From an uncultured Saprospiraceae bacterium (GTDB lineage Bacteria; Bacteroidota; Bacteroidia; Chitinophagales; Saprospiraceae), in assembly GCA_937872385.1 (NCBI GenBank), contig CALMSO010000027.1:186001-250000 (forward strand): a stretch of 64,000 nt of DNA. The letters run 5' to 3'. Positions 48,425-63,072 of the stretch are shown piece by piece. Each line of letters starts with the position of its first letter. Position 1 is the stretch's first letter. The notes beneath the pieces were generated by a model. The model was given only the letters and a program-made list of their open reading frames with translations, was not told where the DNA came from and did not search any database. A program made the position numbers and the translations under genes.

Positions 48425-50008
48425 TTAATTGCCACCAAACACATTGAAAGACAGCCCAACGAAAAAGCCCGTTTCATAGACCAAGCGGGTAGGCACGGCA
48501 TTGACCGAAGAAATGAACGTGTCGCCTTCGCGTAGCCCCTGCCCGAGACGCTCCACGCGCGACCCCATCAGCCCGGTGCTCAGCACCACCCGATCGGAAT
48601 TGCCAATGATGAGGCTTGGCCCCAAGAAGAAAGAGGCCGATTGTCCTGCATTACCACCTGTGATGGGCAAACCAATGCCAAAAGAGCCGCCGAGCGTAGC
48701 ATTTTTGCGGCTTTGGCTATAAAAATGAAAAAACGAGGAAATCACCGGATAGAAGCTGTCTTTGGTTTCGCCAAAAATGACATTATCGCGGGTAAAATAA
48801 TCGAGTGGACGATTAAAAAACTGCCCAAAAGCCACGCCAATACTGGCATTGACCTTAAAACCGCCGATAACGGGTACCTCAATGGGGGCCATTTGTAAGG
48901 CTGGTACCGGCTGGTCGCCAGTGGCTGTGCCGGGCGTAAACCGGATGTTGAAAGTCATATTGTCGCCTTTGGCCGGAGCGCGGTAGCTTTTGTCGAACGG
49001 ATTGGAAAGTAGCGCTTCGTATTCGCGCCAGAGCCTGGCAAGCTGCAGGGCATCTGTATCGGGCATAGCGGCAATGAGGCCGCCGAGGCTGTCTTCAAAA
49101 GTCGTGTAATCGCTATCCTGCGCTTCTACCTGATCGTAGGTCTGCACTACCGGCATTACAAAAAGCGTGTTCACAACGGGCTTGCCAGTGAAGGTGTTAC
49201 TCATAGATTCCCTGAGGTTGTTCATTTTGGCAATTTCCCGGCGGTACTTATTGTGCTCGGCGCGTACTTCGTCAAATTTGGTGCTTAGCTGGCGGCGCAC
49301 ATTGCCCTTTTCTAAGAGGTATTCGAGGTTGACGTCCGCGTCGTTTTCTACACTTAGCACTTTGCGCATATATTCGCGGGTCATTTTCTTGATTTTGTCC
49401 GGTGGCAGCGAGGGGTCGCGTTTGATGTTTTCAATTTCCTGCAATACAAAAGCGTTGATTTGATGCACTTCGGTGAGCGACTGTACTTCTCGGCGTTTTT
49501 GTGTGATGGTTTCATCAATTTCCTGAACGCGCTTGAGCGAAGTGCCAAACTCTTCCACCCAGCGATTGAGCTGATCGTATTCTTGCCTGCCAATGCCCAA
49601 TGAAGCATCGTAAGGGCGGGGCTCACCGCGGCCGTCTTCTGTGCCGGCGAGGTTGAATTTGCTGTCGCCAATGCCCCTTTGCCCACCGGAGCCGAGCGCC
49701 AAAAAGTTCATGGAGTTTTGGCCCAAAGTTGGAAACATCTGCGCAATCGAGCCACCCGAAGCACTGGAAGGCAACCGGATTTCCCGGTTTTCTACTTCAA
49801 TGACCACATCATAGACGTAGTTGTTGTAGTTTTCAATGTGTAAAATGACATTGCTGCCGCGGCGCACGTACGGCCGATCCACCCGCTGGCTATCTATGAC
49901 ATAACGCGGCGTTTGGGTTTGCATATCATAATATACGTGCAGGTCTTGCGCCTGAAGCGCGGCGGTGGTGCATAAGCAGCTGAGACAAAAGATGAACAAT
50001 GGTTTCAT
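48425..50008 (-). CDS. Exported protein with coiled-coil centre and barrel-like end, unknown function
   Basis: 527 residues; not recognised. Signal peptide to about residue 20 (TTAALQAQ), then a beta domain (21-90: YDMQTQTPRYVIDSQ, RRGSNVILHIENYNNYVYDV), a low-complexity Gly/Ser part, and a long charged helical section (about 140-285) with heptads such as LKRVQEIDETITQKRREVQ. The last 150 residues alternate strands (VPVIGGFKVNASIGVAFG, GSFGIGLPITGG, FFVGLSFNVFGGN), similar to an outer-membrane barrel. The layout suggests a protein spanning from periplasm to outer membrane. No informative neighbour. Confidence 0.55.
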   Translation of the reverse strand: MKPLFIFCLSCLCTTAALQAQDLHVYYDMQTQTPRYVIDSQRVDRPYVRRGSNVILHIENYNNYVYDVVIEVENREIRLPSSASGGSIAQMFPTLGQNSMNFLALGSGGQRGIGDSKFNLAGTEDGRGEPRPYDASLGIGRQEYDQLNRWVEEFGTSLKRVQEIDETITQKRREVQSLTEVHQINAFVLQEIENIKRDPSLPPDKIKKMTREYMRKVLSVENDADVNLEYLLEKGNVRRQLSTKFDEVRAEHNKYRREIAKMNNLRESMSNTFTGKPVVNTLFVMPVVQTYDQVEAQDSDYTTFEDSLGGLIAAMPDTDALQLARLWREYEALLSNPFDKSYRAPAKGDNMTFNIRFTPGTATGDQPVPALQMAPIEVPVIGGFKVNASIGVAFGQFFNRPLDYFTRDNVIFGETKDSFYPVISSFFHFYSQSRKNATLGGSFGIGLPITGGNAGQSASFFLGPSLIIGNSDRVVLSTGLMGSRVERLGQGLREGDTFISSVNAVPTRLVYETGFFVGLSFNVFGGN

Positions 50009-50191
50009 GCGGTGTTGTGTTTTTTTTTACAAAAAGCTGGTTACCAGTGTGGTGCAAGGTGGGGAGGGCATGGTTTTTGCGTATTTTTACTATAAATTCG
50101 ACAAGCGCTATACAAATATAGTACGAAATATGTGTTTTCCAATCAATTCGCAATAGTTTCTTGCGGATCCAGGTGCGGCGAGCGTAGATGA

Positions 50192-50231
50192 AAAAACCGG
50201 AACGCCTGCGGCAGGTAGCATTCCGGTTTTT
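50192..50231. terminator. Bidirectional terminator-like hairpin
   Basis: AAAAACCGGAA (50192-50202) pairs perfectly with TTCCGGTTTTT (50221-50231); the loop contains a further CCTGC-GGCAGG palindrome. It closes the minus-strand cassette region before the next gene. Confidence 0.7.
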
Positions 50232-50403
50232 GGCAGCGGATTTTTTTTATTATAAAATGGCTTTGTTAAAAGTAGGTGGACATTGTAATACCTTGTTATC
50301 TTGAGGTCAAAGATGTAAGCATATCCAAACTACAGGAGAATGCTGCTTTAATGTTTAACAAAAAAGTTACGAACAACATTTTAAAGCATTTCTAATTGAC
50401 CAT

Positions 50404-50434
50404 TAAGTAATGGGACATTGTTATTTGTTAATTG
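50404..50434 (-). repeat. Dispersed intergenic repeat, AATTAACAAATAACAAT type (copy 2)
   Basis: The minus strand reads CAATTAACAAATAACAATGT plus CCCATTACTTA and matches 942-972 in 30 of 31 positions. Confidence 0.65.
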
Positions 50435-50529
50435 AAATAGCCGTTGTGCGTTTGATAATCAGTTGTTTACTCGTTTTTTATCGAAAATAATTATGTCCGG
50501 GTAATTAAGACAAATAAACATTACAGCCA

Positions 50530-51711
50530 TTAATTCTTCTCGTCATAGGGAATGTAGTTTTGCCACCGCCAAGGTGTAAAAGTGTCGCCAATTGAATAAG
50601 CTAATAATTCTTTAAAAATGCTTTCTCCATTGTCGTTATTTGTCATAATTAGGATGGCAATTTTTTTGTCAGGAAAACAAATTGAATAATGTCCCCAGCC
50701 ATCATCGTGTCCTTCTTTGAAAAATGCTCTGCCATAAGGCGTTTTGAAAACCCCAACTCCTAAGCCATAACCTAATTGTATATTGTCATTATCTGTACTA
50801 TCAATTTTTGCAAGTGGCCCGAATTGGCTTCTTGATTTAATGCTGACTTGCGTATTTGTCATGGTTTTAAAACTTTTTTTTGAAAGCCCATTGTTACGTA
50901 TTAAAGCTGTATAAAATTTTGTGAAGTCCTCCAGCGTTGTACTCATAGAACCTCCTGCACTTGCTTCTTTCCATTTCATTAGTTCGTATGGTTCGCCTTT
51001 TTCGTTGTGTCCATAACAAATATTTGCGTCAAAACGGGGTTGCCAAACTTGGCTTGTATTTGTCATACCCAGAGGTTTAAAAACGCTTTCTTGTGAAATA
51101 GTTTCATAGTCTTTTCCTGTTACCTGTTCAATGACAAATTGCAGAAGGTAAAGTCCTTCGCCTGAATAGCTGTAACGAGTGCCCGGGTCAAACTTAAATT
51201 TTAGTTTCTTGTCTGCTTCAAACCAACGCCAATTGGGAAAACCTGTTGTATGTGTTAGGCACATACGAGCTGTTATTTTTTTATAGCGGTCATCATTTTT
51301 TAAGTCTTCATAACCTCTGTTCCAACCATTTATTTTATAATCTGGCAAAGGTTTACTTAAATATTCTACAAGTGGTTTGTCAAGGTCAATAACCTTTTCT
51401 TGAACAAATTGCATTGCAATGTAGGCAAACACCATTTTGGCAAAAGACGCTCCATACAGAACGGATGATTGTTGAAAGGGTATATTCTTATGCACATGCG
51501 CAAGTCCATAAGTTTTACTAAATATTGGTTTGTTGTGGTTAAAAACTGAAATAGCGATACCCGAAACATTTGCAGTTTTCATTAGGTGCTCAATTTTTGC
51601 ATCTAAACTGTCGGCTGAAATTTTAGTACCGTCAATTCTTTTGATGGTCTGTCCAAAAGTTAGCGTTGTAAGTGAACCCCAAATTGTCGCAAGTAAGATG
51701 TAATGATTCAT
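50530..51711 (-). CDS. Serine hydrolase, class C beta-lactamase fold (cassette gene)
   Basis: 393 residues with a signal peptide (1-20). The SxxK motif is GASFAK with Ser89 and Lys92; the second motif reads YSYSG near 180-184, where the asparagine of the usual YxN is replaced by glycine; a GHDDGWGH segment near 330 could supply the third element. This family includes beta-lactamases, D-aminopeptidases and esterases; resistance should not be assumed. It is the last gene of array 1: its cassette begins at 51750 with TTAGTTGCCA, but no complementary TGGCAACTAA box is found after the gene, so its attC-like site has been lost or replaced. Confidence 0.82.
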   Translation of the reverse strand: MNHYILLATIWGSLTTLTFGQTIKRIDGTKISADSLDAKIEHLMKTANVSGIAISVFNHNKPIFSKTYGLAHVHKNIPFQQSSVLYGASFAKMVFAYIAMQFVQEKVIDLDKPLVEYLSKPLPDYKINGWNRGYEDLKNDDRYKKITARMCLTHTTGFPNWRWFEADKKLKFKFDPGTRYSYSGEGLYLLQFVIEQVTGKDYETISQESVFKPLGMTNTSQVWQPRFDANICYGHNEKGEPYELMKWKEASAGGSMSTTLEDFTKFYTALIRNNGLSKKSFKTMTNTQVSIKSRSQFGPLAKIDSTDNDNIQLGYGLGVGVFKTPYGRAFFKEGHDDGWGHYSICFPDKKIAILIMTNNDNGESIFKELLAYSIGDTFTPWRWQNYIPYDEKN

Positions 51712-51750
51712 AATTGTTTACTATCTGGTGAGGTCTTTAATGGCAACTAA

Positions 51751-51881
51751 CGTTTTGGCGGCTTGGCGCAGTGGCGGATTTCGGAGCACAAAATTGTCAA
51801 TCCAGCACTAAAGTTAAATTGAAAACTAAACTAACACTTTAAACTGTACCCAGCAATTTTGCATATATTTTGTTAGCGGCA
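51751..51881 (-). repeat. attC-like site after the four-helix protein gene (131 bp)
   Basis: On the minus strand it starts TGCCGCTAAC (51881-51872) and ends CCAAGCCGCCAAAACG with crossover before TTAGTTGCC. The outer box is a perfect 10-base complement of the start of its own cassette (GTTAGCGGCA at 52455-52446). The half next to the gene has lost the TTTGGC stem seen in the other sites. Confidence 0.65.
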
Positions 51882-51892
51882 TAGTCAATTTC

Positions 51893-52381
51893 TTATGTCG
51901 AAGGTGTTGTCAAACTATTAGTATGCTTTACTACTTTATATAGCATTATAAAATTCGTTATTGCCAATAATATCATCGGTATCTTTCTATAAATTAAATC
52001 AGTTGATATAAGCCGTTCAATTAATTCCAGAGAAAATCTTTTGTCAAGTTCGATTTGAATAGGTATTTGAATTGTTATAGTTGAAACCACGGCTATCAAC
52101 TTAAAAAGTAGTGCTAGTCCAACCAACCACTTGCTTATTATCATCGGTCGAAACCAAAACAATAAAATCAGTGGGATGAAGGTTAAGAAAGTGGGAACAA
52201 CAAAGAAGGGAATGATGAGCGAGCTGTCAACTTGATGAAATTTAGGAAATTCATTTGCGCCTACCCAACGCCATGTGGGGTAACCCACAAAGGAATTTAC
52301 CATACTCCCACCGAAAGCATAGAAAGCTAATAGAATATAGACCGCGAATACAATACTTGAAATCTTGTTGTTATTTGTCAT
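51893..52381 (-). CDS. Small four-helix membrane protein (cassette gene)
   Basis: 162 residues with four hydrophobic helices (about 8-30, 56-78, 82-105, 133-152). The loop GSMVNSFVGYPTWRWVGANE and an EFPKFHQVDS segment between helices 1 and 2 look conserved and recall the DUF1772 (anthrone oxygenase-like) pattern, but I would not assign a reaction. The TAA stop is 11 bp before the attC-like box. The cassette start lies 73 bp upstream of the ATG. Confidence 0.65.
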   Translation of the reverse strand: MTNNNKISSIVFAVYILLAFYAFGGSMVNSFVGYPTWRWVGANEFPKFHQVDSSLIIPFFVVPTFLTFIPLILLFWFRPMIISKWLVGLALLFKLIAVVSTITIQIPIQIELDKRFSLELIERLISTDLIYRKIPMILLAITNFIMLYKVVKHTNSLTTPST

Positions 52382-52454
52382 TTTATAATTTTTTAATTTT
52401 AATCATGCTATGTATAATTCTTTGTCTCAGTGCTAACGTCTGACTTGCCGCTAA

Positions 52455-52584
52455 CGTTTTCGGGCTTTGCGTTCGGGCGGGGCTTTTCAGCACTACCGTC
52501 ATTTGGAAAACTGCACTTCAATTATACGAAAAAACTGTTAACCGAAGCACTGCACCCGCTATTACGCCAAACTACTGTTGTGCG
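52455..52584 (-). repeat. attC-like site after the DUF4303 gene (130 bp)
   Basis: On the minus strand CGCACAACAG (from 52584) ends with CCCGAAAACG and crossover before TTAGCGGCA. Inner arms are TAGTTTGGCG and CGCAAAGCCCG. Its outer box matches the start of its own cassette (TTATGCGG) only partly (two differences in nine), unlike the perfect boxes of the other cassettes. A second CG|TTAGCA lies 17 bp further. Confidence 0.6.
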
Positions 52585-52590
52585 TTCGGC

Positions 52591-53142
52591 TTATTGACCC
52601 CAAGTTTTCATCCAAGTTAAGTATTCAGTTTTATATTCATTTTCGTTAAGTCGCTCAACTATTTTTTTTAAGTCTTTCGCCTCAAATTCATAGTCAGAAA
52701 CAGTAAAAATTAGAAAAATATCTTTACCTACAATATTTTTGAAGAAATTCTCATTTTTTAATTTTTCTAAAACGTTAATGCAAGTTTCATAAAGTTCGCT
52801 TTGAAACTTTAAACACCATTCTTCATTATATTCGTCATTTTCTAGAAATTCATTTTCGTCAAGCTCTGCTCTTAATTGCGTACAGATGTCATCAAACTCA
52901 TTGTCTGCGCCTTCCGCTTCGTATTTCCATGCAGCGGGTTCAAACTTGTGATATATCAAATCATTTTGGTCAACAGTTGTCAGATGTTTTAAAGTGTTTG
53001 TTGAAGGACATACAGTCATTGCATCTCCATCACTATAAAGTGCAAATCCATAAATTTCATCAGCACCATATTTTTCAAACATTTCGATAAATGCTTTTTT
53101 GGTTGCGTCTTCTATATTTTGTCTTAAATTTTCAAAATTCAT
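52591..53142 (-). CDS. DUF4303 family protein (cassette gene)
   Basis: 183 residues from the ATG at 53142; upstream in-frame codons run into the attC-like site and are excluded. The N-terminal helix KKAFIEMFEKYGADEIYGFALYSD is typical of DUF4303, an acidic cytoplasmic family sometimes seen in polymorphic toxin immunity or SMI1-like contexts. No signal or membrane segment; very acidic in 95-125. No toxin gene is next to it. Function unknown. Confidence 0.7.
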   Translation of the reverse strand: MNFENLRQNIEDATKKAFIEMFEKYGADEIYGFALYSDGDAMTVCPSTNTLKHLTTVDQNDLIYHKFEPAAWKYEAEGADNEFDDICTQLRAELDENEFLENDEYNEEWCLKFQSELYETCINVLEKLKNENFFKNIVGKDIFLIFTVSDYEFEAKDLKKIVERLNENEYKTEYLTWMKTWGQ

Positions 53143-53201
53143 ATTATAATTTTTTATATTTTTTTTGTCAATCGTTGCAGTTAGAGAAAGCTGCCGCATA
53201 A

Positions 53202-53329
53202 CGGTTTGGCGCTTGGCGAAGGTGGCGATTTCGAAGCACTAAACTGTCAACCTGCACTGAAGCTGAATAGGAGCACAAACCTTCAATTAACCACGTCACC
53301 GCCACTTGCGGCAAACGGCTGTTATAGCC
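53202..53329 (-). repeat. attC-like site after the DUF1648 gene (128 bp)
   Basis: On the minus strand it starts GGCTATAACAG (53329) and ends GCCAAGCGCCAAACCG with crossover before TTATGCGG. Inner arms CCGTTTGCCGC and GCGCCAAAC pair, followed by GTGGCGGTGAC against a CGCCACC block. The outer box GGCTATAAC is the exact complement of G|TTATAGCC at 53892-53884, where this cassette begins. Confidence 0.72.
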
Positions 53330-53346
53330 TGTGCTTTGTATTCTCG

Positions 53347-53847
53347 TCATTTTTTTGGTTTGAGTGTTTTGATTAGGTAATAAGTCATTGGAATAAAAAT
53401 CAACCCCATTGTCAAGGGTAAAAACCAAATACCAAGTCCACCCGCTTCTCCGTTTGCATTTTGAATTGTCTTGAAAGCAATTAGTCCGAAAATAACAACA
53501 ATGTTAAGTTTCAAATATCTAATCATCCTTGTGGCATTTGTATATTGTCTTAATGCGTTGTCTTTTGTTATGTTGGTCGGATAATTAAAAATGTGAGGAA
53601 ACTTATTTAAGATTGTCAATCCAATGAATAGAACTGTTGCGATTAGAGGTAAAGTCAAAATAGTTGCCTTTCTACCAAATCCGTCTGCTTGCCCTGATCC
53701 ATTATAATGTATCGGAATAGTGTCAGGTAAGTTTGCATAGTTTGTAATTGTCAAACCCCAAAGAGAAATAATTAAAAGCCAACCAATAATTTCAAATATT
53801 TTGTCGGCTGTGCTAAGTTCTAATTTTATTTTTGGTCTTTCTGTCAT
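53347..53847 (-). CDS. DUF1648 domain membrane protein (cassette gene)
   Basis: 166 residues with four hydrophobic helices. The extracytoplasmic loop LPDTIPIHYNGSGQADGFGRK after helix 1 is the DUF1648 signature found in SdpI-like immunity proteins and in many unassigned membrane proteins. The rest (GLGIWFLPLTMGLIFIPMTYYLIK) forms helices 3 and 4. A role in immunity against a peptide toxin is possible only by analogy. The ATG lies 44 bp after the cassette start; the stop is 18 bp before the attC-like box. Confidence 0.75.
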   Translation of the reverse strand: MTERPKIKLELSTADKIFEIIGWLLIISLWGLTITNYANLPDTIPIHYNGSGQADGFGRKATILTLPLIATVLFIGLTILNKFPHIFNYPTNITKDNALRQYTNATRMIRYLKLNIVVIFGLIAFKTIQNANGEAGGLGIWFLPLTMGLIFIPMTYYLIKTLKPKK

Positions 53848-53891
53848 TGTCGTTTAAATTTCTCGTTGTCGTCTTTTAGCATTGGCTATAA

Positions 53892-54071
53892 CGGCAGCAG
53901 GGCTGACGCAGTTTTTGAAAAATTCCGCGCAGCGGAAAAAATTTTTCAAAAATTGACGTCAGTCCGGTGTTGTACGATGGTGCCGAGCGTAGCGAGGCGC
54001 CGAGTGCAGCACCGGCGTCAGCCCTGCTGCCGTTGTTCAAGATGCCGAGCGCAGCGAGGTATCTTGAACAA
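53892..54071 (-). mobile_element. Gene-less mini-cassette, 180 bp
   Basis: On the minus strand the element begins TTGTTCAAGAT directly after the crossover G of the preceding site and after 17 bases shows ATCTTGAACAAC, its exact complement, so start and outer box are only 40 bp apart and no gene fits between them. The attC-like part (54043-53892) has arms CGGCAGCAGGGCTGACGC and GCGTCAGCCCTGCTGCCG (18 bp, perfect) and two inner hairpins. A 104 bp section (53975-54078) is identical to 60346-60449. Confidence 0.65.
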
Positions 54072-54200
54072 CGTTTTGCCGCTTGGCGAAGGGCGGGTTT
54101 TCTAGCACTGAACTTCGTAGAAAGCACTAAACTTGGATTTAGCACTTCACTTTCAAAGAAGCACAAAACCCCGCCTTTTGCCAAACGGCTGTTAGCAGAA
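54072..54200 (-). repeat. attC-like site after the HD gene (129 bp)
   Basis: On the minus strand it starts TTCTGCTAACAG (54200) and ends CCAAGCGGCAAAACG with crossover before TTGTTCAAG. Long arms CCGTTTGGCAAAAGGCGGGG and AAACCCGCCCTTCGCCAAG pair; the loop has four copies of GTGCT. The outer box is a perfect 10-base complement of GTTAGCAGAA at 54797-54788, where this cassette begins. Confidence 0.75.
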
Positions 54201-54215
54201 GTGCTTATTTCTCAG

Positions 54216-54758
54216 TTAATTGATGTACTTGTCATATTCATTAATTTTTTTTAATAATCTATTTTCCAAAAATTCGTTTCCTCCTTTTAGTAATTCTAAA
54301 ATTATTTTCGCCTCTTTTTTATATTCTGTTTTTTTTGAAATATCCCAATGTTGCGGTGGTTTTTGTAAGTTTGTTATTCTGTCAGCCAATTTTACTGCCC
54401 AAACTTCTTTGCGTAATTCTTTTGTTCTATTTAAACTATCTAACATTTTTTCGCTTTTTGGCAATAAGTCATTTTTTGTTAATGCTAAAACTCCTTTTGC
54501 AATTTCACTTCCAAATTCTGATTCTAATTCTTCAAAAGTTGTATTTGTGTCTTCCAAAGTGTCGTGCAATAATGCAACTTGGATAGCAAATTCGATGTTA
54601 AAATTCTTGGTATTTTGAGATGCAATTAATATTTCCATTGCAACATTACTTAAGTGTACAACGTATGGAATTTCTGTTCCAGGTATTGTTTGTCCTTTCT
54701 GTAAATGTTTTAAAGTGGCAAAAATTATTGTCTTTTGATATATAGTTTGTATGTCCAT
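54216..54758 (-). CDS. HD-domain protein, small alarmone hydrolase (SpoT-HD/MESH1)-like (cassette gene)
   Basis: 180 residues, the length of stand-alone (p)ppGpp hydrolases. The metal and catalytic motifs of the RelA/SpoT hydrolase domain are in order: PYVVHLSNVA (His35), VALLHDTLEDT (His65, Asp66, Glu69, Asp70), FGSEIAKGVLALTK and VKLADRITNLQ. No synthetase, TGS or ACT domain is present. It would degrade ppGpp or a related nucleotide in the cytoplasm; this is inferred from motifs. First cassette of array 1: its ATG is 38 bp after the crossover point, and its stop is 15 bp before the attC-like site. Confidence 0.8.
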   Translation of the reverse strand: MDIQTIYQKTIIFATLKHLQKGQTIPGTEIPYVVHLSNVAMEILIASQNTKNFNIEFAIQVALLHDTLEDTNTTFEELESEFGSEIAKGVLALTKNDLLPKSEKMLDSLNRTKELRKEVWAVKLADRITNLQKPPQHWDISKKTEYKKEAKIILELLKGGNEFLENRLLKKINEYDKYIN

Positions 54759-54801
54759 TTTATTTTCAGGGGTTGCTCAAAAAGCATTTCTGCTAACATT
54801 T

Positions 54802-54827
54802 GTATAAACGCCATATGGCGTTTATAC
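54802..54827. promoter_or_regulatory. 26 bp perfect palindrome between recombinase stub and first cassette
   Basis: GTATAAACGCCAT and ATGGCGTTTATAC abut with no spacer. It begins 3 bp after the stub's stop codon and ends 4 bp before the crossover G at 54797, so it occupies the place where an integron attI site is expected. It could equally be a terminator-less operator; no function is shown. Confidence 0.55.
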
Positions 54828-54830
54828 ACC

Positions 54831-55043
54831 TTATGTATCGGGCTTCAATTTAGTATTTTTTTCTTTTGGTGGCAAGTCCTGGGCGGGTATTTTTATAGAC
54901 AAAAACTCCAAAGGGCTTCGCAGTTGTGCTTTTTTGTGTTGGGTTATGTGGGTATAGATTTCGGTGGTCTTGCTCGAGTTGTGCCCCAGTAGGTGCTGAA
55001 TGTAGCGCAGGTCTGTACCGCCAATAGCGCTAAAAACGGACAC
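54831..55043 (-). pseudogene. Tyrosine recombinase, C-terminal stub (array 1)
   Basis: Open frame of 70 codons from a GTG; similarity to integrases begins at GGTDLRYIQHLLGH (from 55022) and includes the late His and the nucleophile Tyr in TTEIYTHIT, then LRSPLEFLSIK. The LRSPL ending resembles integron integrases, whose C terminus has RSPLD in the same place. The Arg-Lys-His-Arg part of the active site and the whole N-terminal domain are missing, so it cannot be active. It reads in the same direction as the cassettes, with its stop codon beside them. Confidence 0.75.
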
Positions 55044-55083
55044 AAACGTTTAATAATTGTTTGTAAACGGTTCTTGAAGGGCA

Positions 55084-56139
55084 TTATTCCAGCCCCAGTA
55101 TCTGGCGGTTGCTGGTTTCGTCGGCTTGCCCGCCGGCGAAGTCGTCGAAGGCTTTTTGAGTGACTTCAATGATATGATCTTTGATGAAGGGGCCCCCTTC
55201 GCGCGCGCCTTGTTCGGGCGATTTGATGCAGCATTCCCATTCGAGTACTGCCCAGCCGTCGTAGCTGTATTGCGAGAGCTTACTGAAAATGGCGCCGAAG
55301 TCCACGTGCCCGTCGCCGAGCGAGCGGAAGCGGCCGGGCCGATCCACCCAGTCTTGGTAGCCACCGTACACGCCGGAACGGCCGCTGGGGTTGTACTCGG
55401 CATCTTTTACATGAAACATTTTGATGTAATCGCGGTAAATATCAATGTAAGCTAAATAATCGAGCTGCATGAGTATAAAATGGCTGGGGTCATAGAGCAG
55501 ATTGACGCGGGGGTGATCGTTGGTAGCCTCTAAGAAGCGCTCAAACGAGACGCCGTCGTGCAGATCTTCGCCGGCGTGTACTTCGTAGCAAAGGTCCACA
55601 CCCGCCTCGTCGTAGGCGTTGAGAATGGGCAGCCAGCGCTTGGCGAGTTCTTTAAAACCGGTCTCTACCAGCCCTTTGGGGCGCTGTGGCCAAGGATAAA
55701 CTGTGTGCCAGAGGAACGCACCGGAAAAGGTGACCGAGCGGTCAAGGCCAAGGCGGCGGCTGGCTTGGGCGGCATAGCGCACCTGATGGACGGCCCACTC
55801 TTGCCGGGCTTGGGGGTTGCGCTTTACGGCATCGGGTGCGAAGACGTCGAACATGGTGTCGTAAGCTGGGTGTACGGCGACTAATTGCCCTTGCAGATGT
55901 GTGGATAACTCACTGATTTGCAAGCCAAAAGACTCGATTTTGCCTTTTAGGTCATCGCAGTAGGTTTGGCTCTCGGCGGCGGTTTTGAGGTCTATCAGAC
56001 GGGTTTCCCAGGTGGGTATTTGCACGCCGATGTAGCCGAGGTCGGCCGCCCATTGGCAGATGCTTTCGAGGGTGTTGAAGGGGGCTTCGTCGCCCATGAA
56101 TTGTGCAAGGAAGATGGCAGGGCCTTTGATGGTGTTCAT
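55084..56139 (-). CDS. Sugar phosphate isomerase/epimerase (xylose isomerase-like TIM barrel)
   Basis: 351 residues of the AP-endonuclease-2/xylose isomerase-like fold. Visible pieces: GYIGVQIPTW near the start, LCYEVHAGEDLHDG with a metal-ligand Glu and His, LLYDPSHFILMQLDYLAYI, MFHVKDAEYNPSGR (His ligand) and WAVLEWECCIKS (Glu ligand). Such enzymes isomerise or epimerise sugars or inositol derivatives. Together with the Gfo/Idh/MocA dehydrogenase encoded about 880 bp upstream on the same strand it forms a frequent Bacteroidota pair for modified sugars or inositol. Cytoplasmic, no signal peptide. Confidence 0.85.
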   Translation of the reverse strand: MNTIKGPAIFLAQFMGDEAPFNTLESICQWAADLGYIGVQIPTWETRLIDLKTAAESQTYCDDLKGKIESFGLQISELSTHLQGQLVAVHPAYDTMFDVFAPDAVKRNPQARQEWAVHQVRYAAQASRRLGLDRSVTFSGAFLWHTVYPWPQRPKGLVETGFKELAKRWLPILNAYDEAGVDLCYEVHAGEDLHDGVSFERFLEATNDHPRVNLLYDPSHFILMQLDYLAYIDIYRDYIKMFHVKDAEYNPSGRSGVYGGYQDWVDRPGRFRSLGDGHVDFGAIFSKLSQYSYDGWAVLEWECCIKSPEQGAREGGPFIKDHIIEVTQKAFDDFAGGQADETSNRQILGLE

Positions 56140-56195
56140 GATTGTGATGTTATGATGTTATGATATTATGATATTGGGATATTATGATATTGGGG
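56140..56195. repeat. ATGATATT-type tandem repeat at the isomerase start
   Basis: Imperfect copies of ATGATGTT, ATGATATT and ATGATATTGGG are directly adjacent to the start codon at 56139, i.e. in the leader on the minus strand. Confidence 0.65.
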
Positions 56196-56251
56196 TGATT
56201 TTTGATATAACAATTTGATTTATAAAAATTTAATAATCAATTACTTGCGTG

Positions 56252-56279
56252 GCGAAAGGCGAATAGCTAACAGCGAAAA
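56252..56279 (+). repeat. Heptamer repeat, GCGAANN type
   Basis: Four 7-bp units GCGAAAG, GCGAATA, GCTAACA, GCGAAAA in a row; same pattern as 10111-10173. Confidence 0.5.
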
Positions 56280-56290
56280 GCGCGATGATT

Positions 56291-56701
56291 TTAGTATTTT
56301 TTCCAGGCACCGAGGATGAAGCCGGCTATGGCGTAAATGATAATATTTACTCCGCCGTTGATCCATGATAAAGCATAGGGCCGAAATTCAAACTGGCTTG
56401 TGACGATATTCGGGACGTGCGTAAAGGCAAAACCAATGAGTGCGCCGGTGAGCAGCCCTTGTACTCCGGTTGTGATATTCATTTTGGTGAATAAATGCGC
56501 CATCGTGTATGTAATAATAAGGCTGCCGATAACGCTGGCGATGTAAGGCGTACTGGACTGGTTTTCGGTAATAAAATCCATGGTAAAGTTATTTAGTTTC
56601 ATCCAGCTATCCGTGAAAAGCCCGTACCAAAGCGCTGGAATAATTTGTGCAATAACTATAATGGTAAATACTGCCAAATGATTGATTTTCAGTGATTTCA
56701 T
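56291..56701 (-). CDS. DUF1761 family small membrane protein
   Basis: 136 residues with four hydrophobic helices (about 8-28, 52-72, 80-100, 112-132). The N-terminal NHLAVFTIIVIAQIIPALWYG followed by SWMKLNNF is the DUF1761 pattern (helix, WYG, then a soluble loop). Function unknown. It lies 150 bp upstream of the isomerase gene on the same strand but is separated from it by repeats, so cotranscription is uncertain. Confidence 0.7.
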   Translation of the reverse strand: MKSLKINHLAVFTIIVIAQIIPALWYGLFTDSWMKLNNFTMDFITENQSSTPYIASVIGSLIITYTMAHLFTKMNITTGVQGLLTGALIGFAFTHVPNIVTSQFEFRPYALSWINGGVNIIIYAIAGFILGAWKKY

Positions 56702-57016
56702 GTTTTTTGTTTTGTTTGATTATTTGATAGTGGGCCAAAACGGTTGTTTTTTTGTTCAGATTTCGCAAATCTCAAAGATTTACAAAATCATATCCACCCA
56801 TTTGACCCAGCACCAATTATTTTAAATGTTTATGCCAAAATGATGCAGGCTATAATTTTAAATCATGTAATGCTTTGCAAAAGGAAAGTAAATAAACCGT
56901 TAATTACCCAACAAGTTGTTCGCTATTATACCTTTACAAAATTATAAAAATTTTACACCCCCCTCATCCCCTATTCCCCTATTCCCCTATCCCCCTATTC
57001 CCCCATCAACCCCTCC
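56702..57016. other. 315 bp intergenic region with CCCCTATT repeats
   Basis: Tract 56957-57003 consists of about five CCCCTATTC-like units just after the dehydrogenase gene (minus strand). The remainder is AT-rich without a gene. Confidence 0.6.
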
Positions 57017-58168
57017 TCACCATTTCACCCACTTCTGCTTGCTTTTACCCGATTCTATCACTTTGTAAATAAACTCCATGCCGCGCACCCCGTCGTCAAT
57101 GCTGGGAAAATCGGTATAAACCGGGTCGGGTTCCTTGCCCTCGATGCGGGCGCGGATGCAGTAGGCGAAGTTGCGGTACAGATTGGCGAAGGCCTCTAAG
57201 TACCCCTCCGGGTGGCCGGCCGGTACGCGTGTGTGGGCTTGCACCTCCGGGTACAGCGCGCCTACGCCGGTGCGATACATCTGGGTGTGTCTATCTAACC
57301 ATTTGACCCACAGAGTGTTGGGTTCCATTTGCCGCCATTCTAAGCCGCCTTTTTCACCATAGACGTAGATTTTGATGTTGTTCTCCTCGCCAGCGGCTAT
57401 TTGGCTGACCACCAATGCCCCTTTGGCACCGTTATTGAAACGTAGCAGCACATTACCATCGTCGTCGAGCAGGCGGCCGGGCACTATGGTACTTATTTCG
57501 GCGCACATTTCGGTGATTTGCAAACCGGTGACGTATTCCGCGAGGTTTTCGGCGTGGGTGCCAATGTCGCCCATTGCGCCAGCAATGCCCGAACGGTTGG
57601 GGTCGTTGCGCCAAGCGGCCTGTTTTTGGTTCGCATCTTCAATTTTTTCCGAGAGCCAGCCCTGCGGGTATTCTACGACGACCTTGCGAATGGGGCCCAA
57701 TTCCCCATTTTTAATCATCAGACGCGCCTGCTTCACCATGGGGTAGCCGGTGTAGGTGTGCGTCAGCCCAAAGAGCAGCCCACTGGCATGGACTATTTTT
57801 TGCAATGCGTAAGCCTCTTCGAGATTGAAACTCAGGGGTTTATCGCACATCACGTGGAAGCCGTTTTCCAGCGCCATTTTGGCGGGCCCGAAGTGTACGT
57901 GGTTGGGCGTGACGATAGACACAAAATCCATGCGCTCGCCATCGGGCAGAGCTTTTTCGCGCAAGATCATCTCTTCGTAATTGGCATACACCCGATTGGG
58001 ATGTAGATAGAGCATTTCGCCGGAGGCTTTGGAGCGGTCGGGGTCGCTGCTGAAAGCACCGCACACGAGTTCGATTTCACCGTCTAAATTGGCGGCCATG
58101 CGATGCACCGCGCCGATGAACGCACCAATGCCGCCGCCCACCATGCCCATTTTGATTTTGCGTTTCAT
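57017..58168 (-). CDS. Gfo/Idh/MocA family oxidoreductase
   Basis: 383 residues. Rossmann fold at the N terminus with MGMVGGGIGAFIGAVHR, a later VSIVTPNHVHFGPAKMALENGFHVMCDKPLS (the EKP-type motif appears as CDKP), and the catalytic region GDIGTHAENLAEYVTG with the His that serves in proton transfer. It oxidises a sugar or cyclitol with NAD(P). A C-terminal beta domain carries GHPEGYLEAFANLYRNF. The glgE gene starts on the same strand 30 bp upstream of it, so these may be cotranscribed. Confidence 0.9.
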   Translation of the reverse strand: MKRKIKMGMVGGGIGAFIGAVHRMAANLDGEIELVCGAFSSDPDRSKASGEMLYLHPNRVYANYEEMILREKALPDGERMDFVSIVTPNHVHFGPAKMALENGFHVMCDKPLSFNLEEAYALQKIVHASGLLFGLTHTYTGYPMVKQARLMIKNGELGPIRKVVVEYPQGWLSEKIEDANQKQAAWRNDPNRSGIAGAMGDIGTHAENLAEYVTGLQITEMCAEISTIVPGRLLDDDGNVLLRFNNGAKGALVVSQIAAGEENNIKIYVYGEKGGLEWRQMEPNTLWVKWLDRHTQMYRTGVGALYPEVQAHTRVPAGHPEGYLEAFANLYRNFAYCIRARIEGKEPDPVYTDFPSIDDGVRGMEFIYKVIESGKSKQKWVKW

Positions 58169-58198
58169 GTTTTTTCGTTTTTATCGAAACGAGTGATT

Positions 58199-60142
58199 TC
58201 AACTATTTTCTACCTTGAAAATATGTATCGGATACTTCGAAGGGTTCAGCTCCACGTAGTTCCAGTCATTGAACCAGTAGTACGATTCGTTGGTCAGCAA
58301 GTCGGTGACGCGCAGGTGTACGCGCCCTTCGATGCCGAGTAGTTTTTTGGGCAATTCGACGTAGCCGGCTTGCTTGAATTTGGTATCAAAATTGGCGATG
58401 CACCAAATGACGCTACTTTTATCATCGGAATATTTGATGTAGCTCATCAGCAGGTCGTTGTCGGTGCGGGTAAAATGGATATTCCAAGTCGTTTGCAAGG
58501 CTTTATTTTCCTTGCGAATGCGGTTGATGGCGGTGTATAAATCGGTGAGCCGATTGCGTGTTTCCCAGTTGTAATGGCGAATTTCGTATTTTTCTGAATT
58601 GAAATATTCGTCCTTGCCAGTGGTGTCGTTGCCCGTATTTTCTAAAAATTCGTAGGCAGGGCCGTACAAGCCATAATTGCTCGACAGCGTAGCCGCGAGG
58701 GCGTAGCGCAGCGCGAAGGCATTAGAATCGGCGCCCATGAGTTCGTAGGGCAGGATGTCCGGCGTATTGGGCCAGAAGTTGGGCCGGAAGTATTCGCGCA
58801 TCTCGGTTTGGGTCAGCTCGGTCAGGTAGGTTTCCATCTCCTTGCGCGTGGTGCGCCAGGTGAAGTAAGTGTAGCTTTGCGTGAAGCCGCCTTTGGCCAA
58901 TTGCCCCATGACTTTGGGCCGCGTGAACGATTCCGACAGGAAGATGGTATCGGGGTATTCTTTTTGTACCGCCGCGATGGCCCATTGCCAGAAGCGGAAA
59001 GGCTTGGTGTGCGGATTGTCCACCCGAAAAATGCCGATGCCTTGCTCGCACCAATAAATTAGCACACTTTTCAGCTCGTCCCAAAGGTTTTTCCAGTCTT
59101 CGGTTTCAAAATTGATAGGCACGATGTCTTGATATTTCTTGGGCGGATTTTCGGCGTAAGCAATGGTACCGTCGGGGCGCCAAAGAAACCAATCGGGATG
59201 CTCCTTGACCCAGGGGTGGTCGGGCGCGCACTGGAAGGCGATGTCCATAGCGATTTCGAGGCCGAATTTTTGCGCTTCTTTTATCAAATATTGAAAATCG
59301 GCAAGTGTACCGAGTTCAGAATGAATAGCTTTGTGACCGCCGTCTTGGCTGCCAATGGCCCAAGGCGAGCCGGGTTCGCCGGGTTGGGCCGTCACGGCGT
59401 TGTTTTTGCCTTTTCGATTCAATTCGCCAATCGGATGAATGGGCGGTAGGTACAGCACATCGAAGCCCATCTCTTGCAAGCGCGGCAGCAGGCCCGCCAC
59501 ATCGCGGAAAGTGCCGGTACGCTCTGGATCGGGGCTGGCCGAGCGCGGAAACAACTCGTACCAGGTGCTGAACAGTTCTTTTTCGCGCCCGACGCGCACT
59601 TGCAGGTTGTTGTCGTACTCGGTTTGAAATTGCTTCATCGGGAAGTCATGCACCAATTGGGCGAAAGCCTTGTCGAGTACAGTATCCACAGCCGTTTCGT
59701 AGGTATCGCTTTCGAGGCGAGCGGCGAGGTCAGTCAAGGGTTTGGCTTTGGTTTTGGCGTAGCCTTTGGCGGTTTGGCGTAGTAGTTTGGCGCCGATTTG
59801 CAATTCGACGCCCATGGCCTGCCCGTCTTCGTATTTTTTGCGAAAGCCTTGCAGCCAGTTGAGCAGATGATCGACCCAGGCTTCGAGTTTGTATTGATAA
59901 AATCCTTTTTTCGTCACGGTGAAGCTGCCCGTCCAAATGTCGTTGGGGAGGTCTTTCATAAATACTTCCGACCATTTTTTGTCGCCATCGTGCTTATACC
60001 AAAGCGAGGCGCGGAGGGTGTCGTGGCCGTCAGAAAAAATATCGGCGGTGACTTCCACCTGCTCGCCGACCACACGCTTGATAAAGAATTTGCCACCGTC
60101 AAGCTCCGGCTTTACATTTTCAATAATGACGCGATTTCTCAT
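58199..60142 (-). CDS. glgE: Alpha-1,4-glucan:maltose-1-phosphate maltosyltransferase
   Basis: 647 residues, the size of GlgE. An N-terminal beta sandwich (1-95, VTADIFSDGHDTLRASLWYK) and helical insert precede the GH13_3 barrel with VLYLPPIHPIGE, the nucleophile motif FRVDNPHTKPFRFW (Asp375) and the general acid in FLSESFTRPKVM (Glu404). It extends alpha-glucan from maltose 1-phosphate. No TreS, maltokinase, GlgC or GlgB gene is within the window, so the donor supply must be encoded elsewhere. The dehydrogenase gene follows 30 bp after its stop. Confidence 0.93.
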   Translation of the reverse strand: MRNRVIIENVKPELDGGKFFIKRVVGEQVEVTADIFSDGHDTLRASLWYKHDGDKKWSEVFMKDLPNDIWTGSFTVTKKGFYQYKLEAWVDHLLNWLQGFRKKYEDGQAMGVELQIGAKLLRQTAKGYAKTKAKPLTDLAARLESDTYETAVDTVLDKAFAQLVHDFPMKQFQTEYDNNLQVRVGREKELFSTWYELFPRSASPDPERTGTFRDVAGLLPRLQEMGFDVLYLPPIHPIGELNRKGKNNAVTAQPGEPGSPWAIGSQDGGHKAIHSELGTLADFQYLIKEAQKFGLEIAMDIAFQCAPDHPWVKEHPDWFLWRPDGTIAYAENPPKKYQDIVPINFETEDWKNLWDELKSVLIYWCEQGIGIFRVDNPHTKPFRFWQWAIAAVQKEYPDTIFLSESFTRPKVMGQLAKGGFTQSYTYFTWRTTRKEMETYLTELTQTEMREYFRPNFWPNTPDILPYELMGADSNAFALRYALAATLSSNYGLYGPAYEFLENTGNDTTGKDEYFNSEKYEIRHYNWETRNRLTDLYTAINRIRKENKALQTTWNIHFTRTDNDLLMSYIKYSDDKSSVIWCIANFDTKFKQAGYVELPKKLLGIEGRVHLRVTDLLTNESYYWFNDWNYVELNPSKYPIHIFKVENS

Positions 60143-60345
60143 GTTTTACAAGAGTCTTAGGAGTTTTTTCAGGCAATTGAATTTTTTCACTGACAATTAT
60201 AGGAAAAATACTTGAAGGTGGAAAAAAGATAGGGGGCTTGTTTTTGAAATTTGGTGCGCAAGTACTATTTTACATGTATGTGCCGTAGCCGATTAGAAGC
60301 ACTTTCCTGTCCATTCAGCACAAAGCTTCGTAAAAGCACAGCCCT
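60143..60345. other. Region upstream of glgE, with remnant of a cassette loop
   Basis: The part at 60290-60345, read on the minus strand, has three GTGCT copies as found in the loops of the attC-like sites, so array 2 probably once continued here. It abuts the mini-cassette copy. A TATCTTTT sequence (minus strand, near 60230) could be the -7 box for glgE. Confidence 0.45.
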
Positions 60346-60449
60346 CGATGGTGCCGAGCGTAGCGAGGCGCCGAGTGCAGCACCGGCGTCAGCCCTGCTG
60401 CCGTTGTTCAAGATGCCGAGCGCAGCGAGGTATCTTGAACAACGTTTTG
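60346..60449 (-). repeat. 104 bp direct repeat, second copy of 53975-54078
   Basis: Identical base by base to 53975-54078 in the same orientation; comprises the start of the gene-less mini-cassette and the last bases of the attC-like site before it. The two copies are about 6.4 kb apart. Confidence 0.85.
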
Positions 60450-60571
60450 GCGCTTGGCGCAGTGGCGGATTTCGGAGCACAAAACTGTTCATACACCATA
60501 AAAGTTGATGCGAGGCATAATGTTCAATTAACCACGTCACTCGCTATTGAGCCAAACGTCTGTTATGTAGC
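60443..60571 (-). repeat. attC-like site after the AlbA_2 gene (129 bp)
   Basis: On the minus strand it starts GCTACATAACAG and ends CCAAGCGCCAAAACG, crossover before TTGTTCAAG. Inner arms are GACGTTTGGCTC and GCGCCAAAA. The TAA of the outer box is the stop codon of the gene, as often in integron cassettes. Confidence 0.72.
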
Positions 60572-61951
60572 GTTTTTCTTTTTCCAAGCGATAATTTTTG
60601 TTCCATTAATGCTGTAGATAGGTTCAATTAGATTCTTGTTTCTTAAATCGTAGAAATGTCTTTTCATTACGTTTTCAGATTTTATACCTGTTAAAAGACG
60701 AGCTTGTTTGTTTTTGATGCTAGGATTAGAATTTAGAAAATTCATTATTTGTTCTTCAGGTGATGCTAATGAAGTGTGTGCAATAATTACTTTAATATAA
60801 TTTCCATCTTCAATTATTTTTGGTGCTTTAAGTCTAAATTCTTCCATTCTTTGAAATGCAGTGTTTAAGCCTTCTCCCATATCTTTATTTGCAGGATTTT
60901 TGTATTTGTTTAAAACACGAACAATTTTTGAATTTCTAGAAAATCTCGCATCCAATATGTTTTCTATCGTAACATAACCTGGCAATCTGCCGGGGCTTTT
61001 TATTTCTATTCTATTGTTAAATACTAAAACTTGAATGTCGTCTGAAATTGAATAATCCCTATGAATCACGGCATTTACAAGAATTTCCCAAATTGTTTCA
61101 GGTGGATATTTGACTCTTTCAAGTCCACTTTCCCCCATAATTTGTACCGACTCCATTATTTCTGTAATTCTTGATGACGCTTGTTTTATTTGTTCATTTA
61201 GGCATCCTTCAATCGAATATTGTTCTTTTAAATGTATTCTTTCTGGGATCTCTTCTGATGTATCATACCTAGTTATTTTTATACCACAGCGCTTTGGCAT
61301 TAGTGGAGTAGGATTATCACTAAATAATAAAATTCCTGCTGTTCTTGGGTCATAGGACTTTCTATCAACTAAATTTTGGTTTACTGTGAAGTCAATAGGG
61401 TCTGATTGAGGAGAGTAATCTTTTAGAAATTTGATAATTTCCTTTGATTCAAATATATCTTCTGCTAAAGCTGAATTAATGATTGTATCTTCAAACGAAG
61501 ATTCACCTTTAGCATAAGAAAGTGCTTGAATTTGTGCAGGGTCTTTAAGTGGGATTGATTGAGATGATTTTCTTACATATACTGTGTTATTTGCCGTTTT
61601 ATGTACAGACTCACTTTTCTCAATCGTAATTCTCAAGGAATATTTATTATTGTCGTCTTGAAGAAATTCGTAACTATGAGGAATTGTTGGAGTTAGTTCA
61701 GTTAAGTTTTGAAACACAAAGTTAAAAGATTCCATATCTTCAACTCCTTGCCACCTTTTAAATGGGTCATTTTCTTCTTTTTTATCTTTTATACCGATAA
61801 TAAACTCTCCACCATCAGCATTTGCAAATGCTACAGCAATTTTTTGAATTTTGTCGCCTTTTATTTCAAAGGCTTTGTTGTCATAAAAATGACTTTCTTC
61901 TCGTTGTGCTAGGTCAATTATTTCTGGTGTGGATACTTTTCTTATTTTCAT
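60563..61951 (-). CDS. AlbA_2/Schlafen-type putative regulator with ATPase-like C-terminal domain (cassette gene)
   Basis: 462 residues, no signal peptide. The N-terminal AlbA_2 (Schlafen) domain covers about 10-150, with REESHFYDNKAFEI, AFANADGGEFIIGIKD and VYVRKSSQS. A HATPase_c_4-like domain follows at about 270-395 (PPETIWEILVNAVIHRDYS, GRLPGYVTIEN, NKDMGEGLNTAFQRM), then a winged-helix-like end. These proteins are annotated as transcriptional regulators or ATP-dependent helicase-like; some relatives take part in phage defence. The actual role here is unknown. The gene ends exactly in the attC-like box and starts 28 bp after the crossover point, so it is the cargo of array 2. Confidence 0.82.
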   Translation of the reverse strand: MKIRKVSTPEIIDLAQREESHFYDNKAFEIKGDKIQKIAVAFANADGGEFIIGIKDKKEENDPFKRWQGVEDMESFNFVFQNLTELTPTIPHSYEFLQDDNNKYSLRITIEKSESVHKTANNTVYVRKSSQSIPLKDPAQIQALSYAKGESSFEDTIINSALAEDIFESKEIIKFLKDYSPQSDPIDFTVNQNLVDRKSYDPRTAGILLFSDNPTPLMPKRCGIKITRYDTSEEIPERIHLKEQYSIEGCLNEQIKQASSRITEIMESVQIMGESGLERVKYPPETIWEILVNAVIHRDYSISDDIQVLVFNNRIEIKSPGRLPGYVTIENILDARFSRNSKIVRVLNKYKNPANKDMGEGLNTAFQRMEEFRLKAPKIIEDGNYIKVIIAHTSLASPEEQIMNFLNSNPSIKNKQARLLTGIKSENVMKRHFYDLRNKNLIEPIYSINGTKIIAWKKKNAT

Positions 61952-61980
61952 TTTTCGGTTATTTTAAAATGCTACATAAC

Positions 61981-62012
61981 GGCAGCAGGGCTGACGCAAC
62001 TGCGTTGCGTGG
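61981..62012 (-). promoter_or_regulatory. attI-like junction between recombinase stub and AlbA_2 cassette
   Basis: Thirty-two bases between the stub's stop codon and the crossover G. It has an inverted repeat ACGCAAC/GTTGCGT (arms 61994-62000 and 62004-62010) and shares a 23 bp stretch (61976-61998) with 53888-53910, the end of the mini-cassette site. Confidence 0.5.
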
Positions 62013-62150
62013 TTACCCCATATCTTCTAAGTTGTCCAAGGGGCTTTTCAGCCGCTTTTTGGCATAATCCGTAATCTGGAATGTATATTTCGGTGGTCTT
62101 GGTGGAATGCTACCCCAGTAGCTTCTGAATGTAGCGTAGGTCGTTGCGTT
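62013..62150 (-). pseudogene. Tyrosine recombinase, C-terminal stub with stop and frameshift (array 2)
   Basis: On the minus strand DLRYIQKLLG is followed by an in-frame TAG, then HSTKTTEIY, and after a frameshift ITDYAKKRLKSPLDNLEDMG. The KSPLDNL end is that of Bacteroidota integrases and resembles the RSPL end of the stub in array 1. The preserved part starts at almost the same residue (before DLRYIQ) as the other stub. Confidence 0.72.
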
Positions 62151-62384
62151 TATTGGGGTTTGTATTCCTTTCAATACCGCTTCCAAATGTACAGGCATTC
62201 CGCAGAACAAGCAAGTGTATTTCGCTCTTTTTTAGAGCGGTACGTATTTTTTGGTAGGTGTATTTGCGCGCAAGGCGGCGGCGGGGGAGGTATCTGGTTA
62301 TCTGGTGATTCGGTTATCTGGTGAGCGATAACTCCGGGGTACTGCAATAGCTATTTATACCATTTAAGATTGGCGAAGTCCGAT
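62151..62384. other. Region between stub 2 and DUF1697 gene, with short repeats
   Basis: Holds a CGCTCT-TTTTT-AGAGCG hairpin (62223-62239), two direct copies of GGTTATCTGGTGA (62296-62308, 62312-62324) and a partial copy of the ATCCGATTCA repeat family at 62357-62388. No gene. Confidence 0.55.
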
Positions 62385-62948
62385 TCATTTATCTTTATCG
62401 GTTGCGGTTACTTCTTCGGCCATCCGTAGGAGCGTGTTCACCGTTTTCCAGTTGCGCGTGGTAGCCGCTACTTGCAGCCTGCTTTCGATGAAGGTGTTGG
62501 TCAGTTTGGTGCGGCCATAGCCGTTGGGGCAATACAGATACACGGCTTCGGGCGTGCAGGCGATGGCTTCGCCCGGGGACAGCTTCGCTTCGATGGCTAT
62601 TTCATCTATGTGCGCGGGCGGGGCGGCTAAAAAAGTAATATGCAGGAAATTTTCGTCTTTGGTGCTATCGTCAGCAAAGGGGTTGTGCGCGACAATGCGT
62701 TGTAGCTGCGGCATGGCCAACACAAACACCGGCACCGAGAAGCCAAATTTCTGCTCAATGGCGGCGGCAATGTCCGCTGCTAAGGGGCCCGGCTCCCGGT
62801 CGCTCCGGAAAACGACATTCCCACTCTGAATCCAGGTTTGTACCTGTTGCAGCCCCAGCGTTTCGTAAAGGGCTTTCAGCGCGTCCATTTTCATTGGTTT
62901 TTGCCCGCTCACATTAATGCCGCGCAGCATAGAAATATAGGTAGCCAT
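62385..62948 (-). CDS. DUF1697 family protein
   Basis: 187 residues. The N-terminal MATYISMLRGINVSGQKPMKM, then VQTWIQSGNVVFRSD and YCPNGYGRTKLTN and the end RNWKTVNTLLRMAEE are diagnostic of DUF1697, a widespread cytoplasmic family with no established biochemical role. It is encoded singly. The start at the ATG 62948 gives the expected N terminus. Confidence 0.9.
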   Translation of the reverse strand: MATYISMLRGINVSGQKPMKMDALKALYETLGLQQVQTWIQSGNVVFRSDREPGPLAADIAAAIEQKFGFSVPVFVLAMPQLQRIVAHNPFADDSTKDENFLHITFLAAPPAHIDEIAIEAKLSPGEAIACTPEAVYLYCPNGYGRTKLTNTFIESRLQVAATTRNWKTVNTLLRMAEEVTATDKDK

Positions 62949-63020
62949 TGCAGATTGATTTTTTCACGGATGGTCAAATGTACGCCGCTTTTGCAGAAAA
63001 GCAAGCCCGTTGGAACAAAA

Positions 63021-63051
63021 AAGCCGGCTTGCACTGTGTACAAACCGGCTT
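63021..63051 (-). terminator. Hairpin terminator after gliding-type adhesin gene
   Basis: AAGCCGG (63021-63027) and CCGGCTT (63045-63051) form a perfect 7 bp stem; on the minus strand it starts 22 bp after the stop codon and is followed by a T-run (complement of 63016-63020). Confidence 0.6.
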
Positions 63052-63072
63052 CGTTGCGTCAAATGGTTATTT

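Follow-up and report, generated by a model that had tools for sequence, protein, structure and literature searches.

In attI1, the site of class 1 integrons, an L arm is followed by a short spacer and then by the G^TT crossover, the R box of which comes to form the end of the cassette; extra integrase sites are found beside this core as accessory direct repeats. Outside class 1, attI sites have been described poorly, as stated in the IntegronFinder 2.0 paper (PMC9024848), and a 1997 title by Hansson et al. called attI sites 'non-palindromic' (cited in PMC4792948). In the reverse integrons of Treponema, the integrase gene is transcribed towards attI, in the direction of the cassettes, and attI, which presents a GTT-type R box, separates the first cassette from the 3′ end of the integrase gene (PMC3607928). 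The integron integrase IntI is distinguished by an integron-specific domain according to the IntegronFinder 2.0 paper, the survey of which listed a single complete integron, that of Salinibacter ruber, for Bacteroidetes proper (PMC9024848). In another study, this insert was described as not fully conserved in an integron-like subgroup, yet essential for integron function (PMC8138268).

The window analysed here, a whole stretch of 64,000 nucleotides (C27:186001-250000), belongs to a 4.85-Mb assembly in 113 contigs and holds two cassette arrays (arrays 1 and 2), both with the layout of the Treponema-type reverse integrons. At the head of array 1 a long perfect palindrome was found, and we consider it probable, at roughly 0.66, that it forms the upstream part of attI and would provide paired recombinase-binding arms to an integron-like array of reverse layout.

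A Perfect Palindrome at the Array 1 Junction

On the minus strand, on which all window features described below are placed, array 1 runs in one direction from an integrase remnant through the palindrome to the gene cassettes. The remnant (GTDLRYIQHLLGHNSSKTTEIYTHI..., 54831-55043) is a 70-residue stub corresponding to the C-terminal end of a tyrosine recombinase, and the palindrome (TGTATAAACGCCAT|ATGGCGTTTATACA, 54801-54828) consists of TGTATAAACGCCAT joined to its own reverse complement, with an arm of 14 and a spacer of 0. Such symmetry is far beyond chance: the second-longest perfect spacer-0 palindrome within the 64 kb has an arm of 8, the largest arm across 50 dinucleotide shuffles of the window was 9, and the expected number of palindromes with an arm of at least 14 was 0.00024. 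The initial annotation had placed a perfect palindrome of 26 bp within 54797-54830; its presence and position were borne out, and its length was corrected to 28 bp.

The right arm of the palindrome (TGGCGTTTAT, 54804-54813) corresponds to the left (L) arm that is conserved in the attI core described below and lies 7 nt before the crossover, and the left arm (ATAAACGCCA, 54816-54825) is an inverted copy of this core arm, matching it at 10/10 positions with a spacer of 2. The G^TT crossover triplet occupies 54795-54797, with the first cassette starting at 54796, and the junction fits the core motif exactly (TGGCGTTTAT-acaa-ATG^TTAGCAG). A search against Rfam gave 0 matches within window positions 50000-64000.

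Integrase Remnants and the Intact Family Gene

Directly before the stub, a block at 55034-55098 is 91% identical to C40:3705-3767, a segment upstream of an intact gene of the same family on another contig of the genome, and it probably represents the 5′ flank of the deleted gene. By this alignment, the window integrase gene appears to have kept its 5′ flank and 3′ end and lost its middle. Since this gene is a remnant, the array would be either frozen or served in trans by the intact C40 integrase, a protein of 350 aa (L010:3854-4906). Upstream of the intact gene, CGTTT/AAACG repeats were observed (L010, ~3731-3810), partly kept at window 55034-55098, and a promoter or operator function is possible for them.

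The catalytic residues were invariant in 17/17 aligned integrases, and the integron-specific insert, an extra domain near the C terminus by which integron integrases are defined, was absent from the same 17/17, with residues 181-242 of IntI4 (62 aa) standing opposite 19 positions of the integrase profile. The C40 protein scored 186 with TIGR02249, below the cut-off of 265, and its highest-scoring NCBIfam model was NF040815 (191.9, below the cut-off of 220). In a Foldseek search with its predicted structure (pLDDT 84, pTM 0.60), the integron integrase 2A3V ranked first and XerA came next. In the same genome, C72 and C5 also gave weaker recombinase matches, which were regarded as probable Xer genes, the array-type integrase being that of C40.

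A relative of the integrase at E ≤ 1e-30 was found in 94/150 sampled genomes of the family, not each of them at an array; an order-level search (283/298 genomes) was not used as an integrase count, its profile probably matching Xer genes as well. In one locus (L099:262-1889), an integrase relative lies directly before an IS91-type transposase gene (Zn_Tnp_IS91, Y2_Tnp), the listed ORFs overlapping, and a few other junctions resemble this arrangement by eye only. Relatives were also seen in records labelled Deltaproteobacteria, Firmicutes and Spirochaetota, two of them with attI-like cores (L156, L183) and two with the integrase only (L169, L181), which could reflect transfer or misbinned contigs. 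Many contigs (L055-L134) stop no more than ~2 kb behind the integrase; assemblies would be expected to break in this way at repeated attC arrays, in which case the arrays are underestimated.

A Conserved attI Core behind Homologous Integrases

The core was learned with an iterative two-block matrix, in which symmetry was not used, from 95 distinct junctions behind homologous integrases, drawn from genomes among the 94/150 with an integrase match. The null threshold was the 99% level from dinucleotide shuffles. Duplicates, junctions with no stop codon, sites below the null threshold and sites with a left flank shorter than 60 nt were dropped before the respective counts, and the collection leaves aside matches at contig ends and 10/90 listed regions. 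The training matrix converged on TTGCGGATAT-n4-AAG^TTR, giving the conserved core TTGCGGATAT-n4-AAG^TT; 52/95 training junctions, scored with the matrix that they themselves had trained, exceeded the 99% null, and the gap was 4 in 63/75 sites used for training.

With the matrix fixed, a second set of 171 other junctions, taken from named records and further genomes of the order, yielded 62 above the 99% null, where ~2 would be expected, and 109/171 had no core above the threshold. The two sets consist of related sequences and are not independent draws. Among the second-set matches, the gap was exactly 4 in 58/62, and the core was located inside the integrase gene in 2/62 and at or beyond its 3′ end in 60/62. 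A primary attI site beside the integrase gene, as found in integrons, is therefore present after the stop codon in this family (52/95 and 62/171 above null), and the reverse layout of the two window arrays is shared by 60/62 of the second-set matches. The motif is also usable in practice, as it makes the scattered arrays in this group searchable.

An Inverted Copy of the Core Arm among Homologous Loci

The flank to the left of the core arm was examined for an inverted copy over 10 positions, with a spacer of up to 16 nt. At 34/106 sites the left flank matched its own core arm at ≥8/10 positions, against a mean of 7.8 and a maximum of 15 sites in 500 trials with swapped flanks; at ≥9/10 positions, it was 22/106 against 1.7 (maximum 5). 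When spacers of up to 40 nt were admitted, both halves of the data concurred (20/46 against 4.9 and 20/60 against 5.0). The palindrome is thus recurrent, not universal. Because swapping the flanks lowers the match, left arms tend to follow the core arm of their own locus, which would suit two copies of the site of one cognate recombinase.

The initial annotation had suggested that short palindromes at the junctions may be recombinase-binding arms and had named the lack of a conserved palindrome at intact homologous loci as evidence against this. Such a palindrome was found: with ORFs of 335-429 codons, the left arm matched at ≥8/10 in 25/85 sites (swapped flanks, mean 5.6, maximum 13), while at the genome's own intact C40 locus, where the core lies ~300 nt after the integrase stop, the match was weak (6/10). 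The suggestion therefore has partial support, in that the right arm coincides with the conserved core arm and its inverted copy on the left is enriched in homologous loci, but 72/106 sites present no clear inverted left arm. The palindrome also occurs with ORFs of 260-334 codons (3 of 10 such cases), and on this ground the N-terminal segment of the integrase was dropped as a candidate binder of the extra arm.

As controls, decoy right arms placed 10, 15 and 20 nt upstream had inverted matches of ≥8/10 in 2/104, 6/99 and 9/95 flanks, and of ≥9/10 in 0, 2 and 6, which indicates that inverted repeats also occur away from the core arm. A decoy placed in the cassette start gave 0/106. On a quick tree of 103 integrases, the palindrome state changes at least 15 times, and it is therefore not required everywhere.

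The spacers of the 40 matches of ≥8 were clustered at 0-5 (24), 7 (1), 13-16 (9) and 23-40 nt (6), with 0/40 at 8-12 and 17-22. At a period of 10.5 the clustering reached R 0.52, against 0.32 in the swapped control. Proteins placed on one face of the helix would produce such clusters, and the pattern is suggestive of this among few and related sites, with a swapped control that is partly alike. Helical phasing as strong proof was dropped, part of the same pattern being seen in that control.

A transcript-level role had also been put forward for the palindrome, as a transcription terminator or RNA hairpin that ends the integrase gene and insulates the cassettes. The palindrome folds strongly as RNA (-21.4 kcal/mol, z -4.1), and a consensus scan found it terminator-like on the plus strand, that is, the strand opposite the integrase. 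However, intrinsic terminators have a T-run behind the stem-loop on the strand that is transcribed, and in 34/34 palindromic sites no T-run longer than 2 occurs on the integrase strand in the 12 nt that follow the right arm. A hairpin acting in the transcript also predicts an excess of G-T over A-C mismatches between the arms, whereas 15 G-T, 12 A-C and 58 other mismatches were counted, with no G-U bias, which argues against an RNA hairpin. In addition, the right arm stays at a fixed distance from the crossover even at sites that lack the palindrome. Termination is thus disfavoured and seems rather improbable.

Operators of dimeric regulators typically show perfect symmetry, and the palindrome has this usual form; it could be such an operator, or part of a cassette promoter, that overlaps attI by chance. 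The LexA, CRP, H-NS, IHF and FIS sites described for the class 1 attI region speak for regulation at this place (PMC8876359, passage on regulatory signals). This explanation is nevertheless unlikely, as the arm spacer ranges from 0 to 16 nt over the 34 sites, and the arm sequence varies by locus yet tracks its own core arm, which would be expected of a cognate recombinase and not of one shared regulator.

Cassette Boundaries, attC Pairing and Base 11

The junctions were tested through the cassettes: at a true junction, complementarity is expected between the cassette start (R′) and the R″ box in the attC at the opposite end of the cassette. A downstream stretch of at least 700 nt was available at 76 sites, of which 27 presented an R″ match to the cassette start of 11/12, where 0.3 was expected from swapped starts, and an exact 9-nt R″ match was found at 44/106 sites. 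Of the attC candidates, 41 had sufficient length for a test, and GTT[AG] formed the end of 39 of them; the L″/L′ score of these 39 averaged 11.2 against 6.3 for shuffles, and in 33/39 it was reached by at most 1/30 shuffles. The G^TT crossover is confirmed by this R″/R′ and L″/L′ complementarity of the following attC, and attC sites with R″-L″-L′-R′ boxes and a G^TT crossover, which belong to the definition of integrons, are present.

In the window, an R″ box was found for 6/9 cassette starts tried. The first cassette of array 1 carries a gene for an HD domain protein (54216-54758), and the R″ box of its attC (54191-54198) is complementary to the cassette start. The candidate attI that the initial annotation had seen at this junction is accordingly upheld by three observations, namely the core motif common after homologous integrases, the cassette beginning at G(54797)^TT and the complementary R″ box. 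Array 1 also contains a gene-less cassette (53893-54072), extending from the crossover at 54072 to that at 53892, with R″ at 54032-54039. Further R″ boxes belong to the DUF1648 cassette (start 53892; R″ at 53321-53328), to the cassette start at 52455 (51872-51879) and to the first cassette of array 2 (start 61980; 60562-60569). The gene-less cassette, made of nested inverted repeats, was also observed in partial form at the far end of array 2 (60346-60443) and on C96 (L009, ~4015-4195).

With the bases of R′ numbered from the G of the crossover triplet (base 1), base 11 was A in 44/44 R″/R′ pairs and matched in 0/44, and pairing was resumed at bases 12, 13 and 14 in 37, 36 and 31 of the 44. 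The same base was A at 102/106 attI sites and at the next cassette start in 28/39 attC sites. In the window, base 11 was unpaired for the cassettes at 54797 (an A opposite a non-partner), 53892, 52455 and 61980, but the two copies of the gene-less cassette have a paired base here. The unpaired A may be a strand-choice signal.

Array 2 and Further Copies of the Site

The second inverted repeat of the initial annotation, ACGCAAC/GTTGCGT in array 2, is present as ACGCAAC-gca-GTTGCGT at 61994-62010 and is homologous to the attI palindrome, of which it is a remnant that appears to be joined to the right half of an attC. The integrase remnant of array 2 (62013-62210) appears from its alignment to carry an internal deletion. 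The junction reads CCACGCAACGCAGTTGCGT-CAGCCCTGCTGCCG^TT, and a same-genus attI, the integrase frame of which is also truncated (L106), reads CCACGCAACGGTATTGCG-TAGTTACGAATG^TT. The array 2 junction resembles the latter at its start and, at its end, the right half of the gene-less cassette's attC; it looks like an attI/attC chimera, in which the core to the right of the palindrome would have been replaced by an attC right half.

Two further copies of the site were found in the genome, at 265 kb of C27 and on C96, each matching at 9/10 arm positions. The former (L008:15135-15356, C27:265135-265356) is a 222-bp copy of the stub end and attI with 97% identity, lying 24 kb from array 1 in inverted orientation with another first cassette. 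In a same-genus alignment read by eye, array 2 and this third copy on C27 appear to share an internal deletion of the integrase unlike that of array 1.

Junctions like that of array 2 bear on one more explanation, in which the symmetry would be a by-product of core arms duplicated and inverted by past recombination, with no present function. The patchy distribution of the palindrome on the integrase tree (at least 15 changes) and the inverted repeats 20 nt further upstream in 9/95 flanks are compatible with it, as is the chimeric appearance itself. However, matches of ≥9/10 in 22/106 sites against 1.7 after swapping, between arms whose sequences differ from locus to locus, suggest that the matching is maintained, and a functionless origin is highly improbable. 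A paired recombinase-binding arm is the most likely role of the palindrome.

Proposed Role of the Palindrome and Comparison with Known Systems

In the mechanism that we propose, one integrase monomer would bind the core arm on duplex DNA and a second monomer would bind the inverted left arm; the other side of the core comes from the R′ end of the incoming cassette. The extra arm might then stabilise the complex at attI by which a folded bottom-strand attC is captured, in a manner similar to the accessory integrase sites of attI1.

Among the literature matches listed, taken by titles and abstract openings, neither a palindromic attI in Bacteroidota nor insert-less integrases at attC arrays were found. 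There is about an even chance that Bacteroidota hold a widespread integron lineage missed by domain searches, with an insert-less integrase and its own site code, made of the doubled inverted attI arm and the unpaired base-11 A. Under this same even-odds proposal, the inverted arm pair would serve duplex binding by a recombinase dimer, and the base-11 A would replace or add to the extrahelical bases that guide strand choice in known attC sites. Should attC sites of this kind prove to be recombined by integrases that lack the insert, that insert, called essential in PMC8138268, would not be universal, and the step from a Xer recombinase to an integron would become testable. These observations suggest that the system is related to the integrons known for spreading antibiotic resistance, but as a relative that has been little recognised.

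Compared with described systems, the likeness to IS91-type transposons with a tyrosine recombinase is limited to the L099 arrangement, and the junction there has no attI core above the threshold (score 8.5). With XerA/XerC-type recombinases (NF040815; 4A8E, 5HXY), the integrases share a catalytic architecture that lacks the IntI insert, but the genes studied here are located at cassette arrays carrying attI and attC sites, and the C40 protein is longer at its N terminus by a segment of ~75 residues. Treponema reverse integrons are alike in the direction of the integrase gene, the place of attI and the GTT-type R box; they differ in that the integrases aligned here have no integron-specific insert, and because of this the system, although it would function in the manner of a reverse integron, departs from the definition of integrons in one respect. 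The attI described here also has a conserved L arm, with an inverted copy in 34/106 sites, whereas the R box alone is named for the Treponema attI in the corresponding passage of PMC3607928. Class 1 attI1 shares the L arm, the short spacer, the G^TT crossover and the extra sites near the core, although its accessory sites are direct repeats, while the additional arm found here is an inverted copy.
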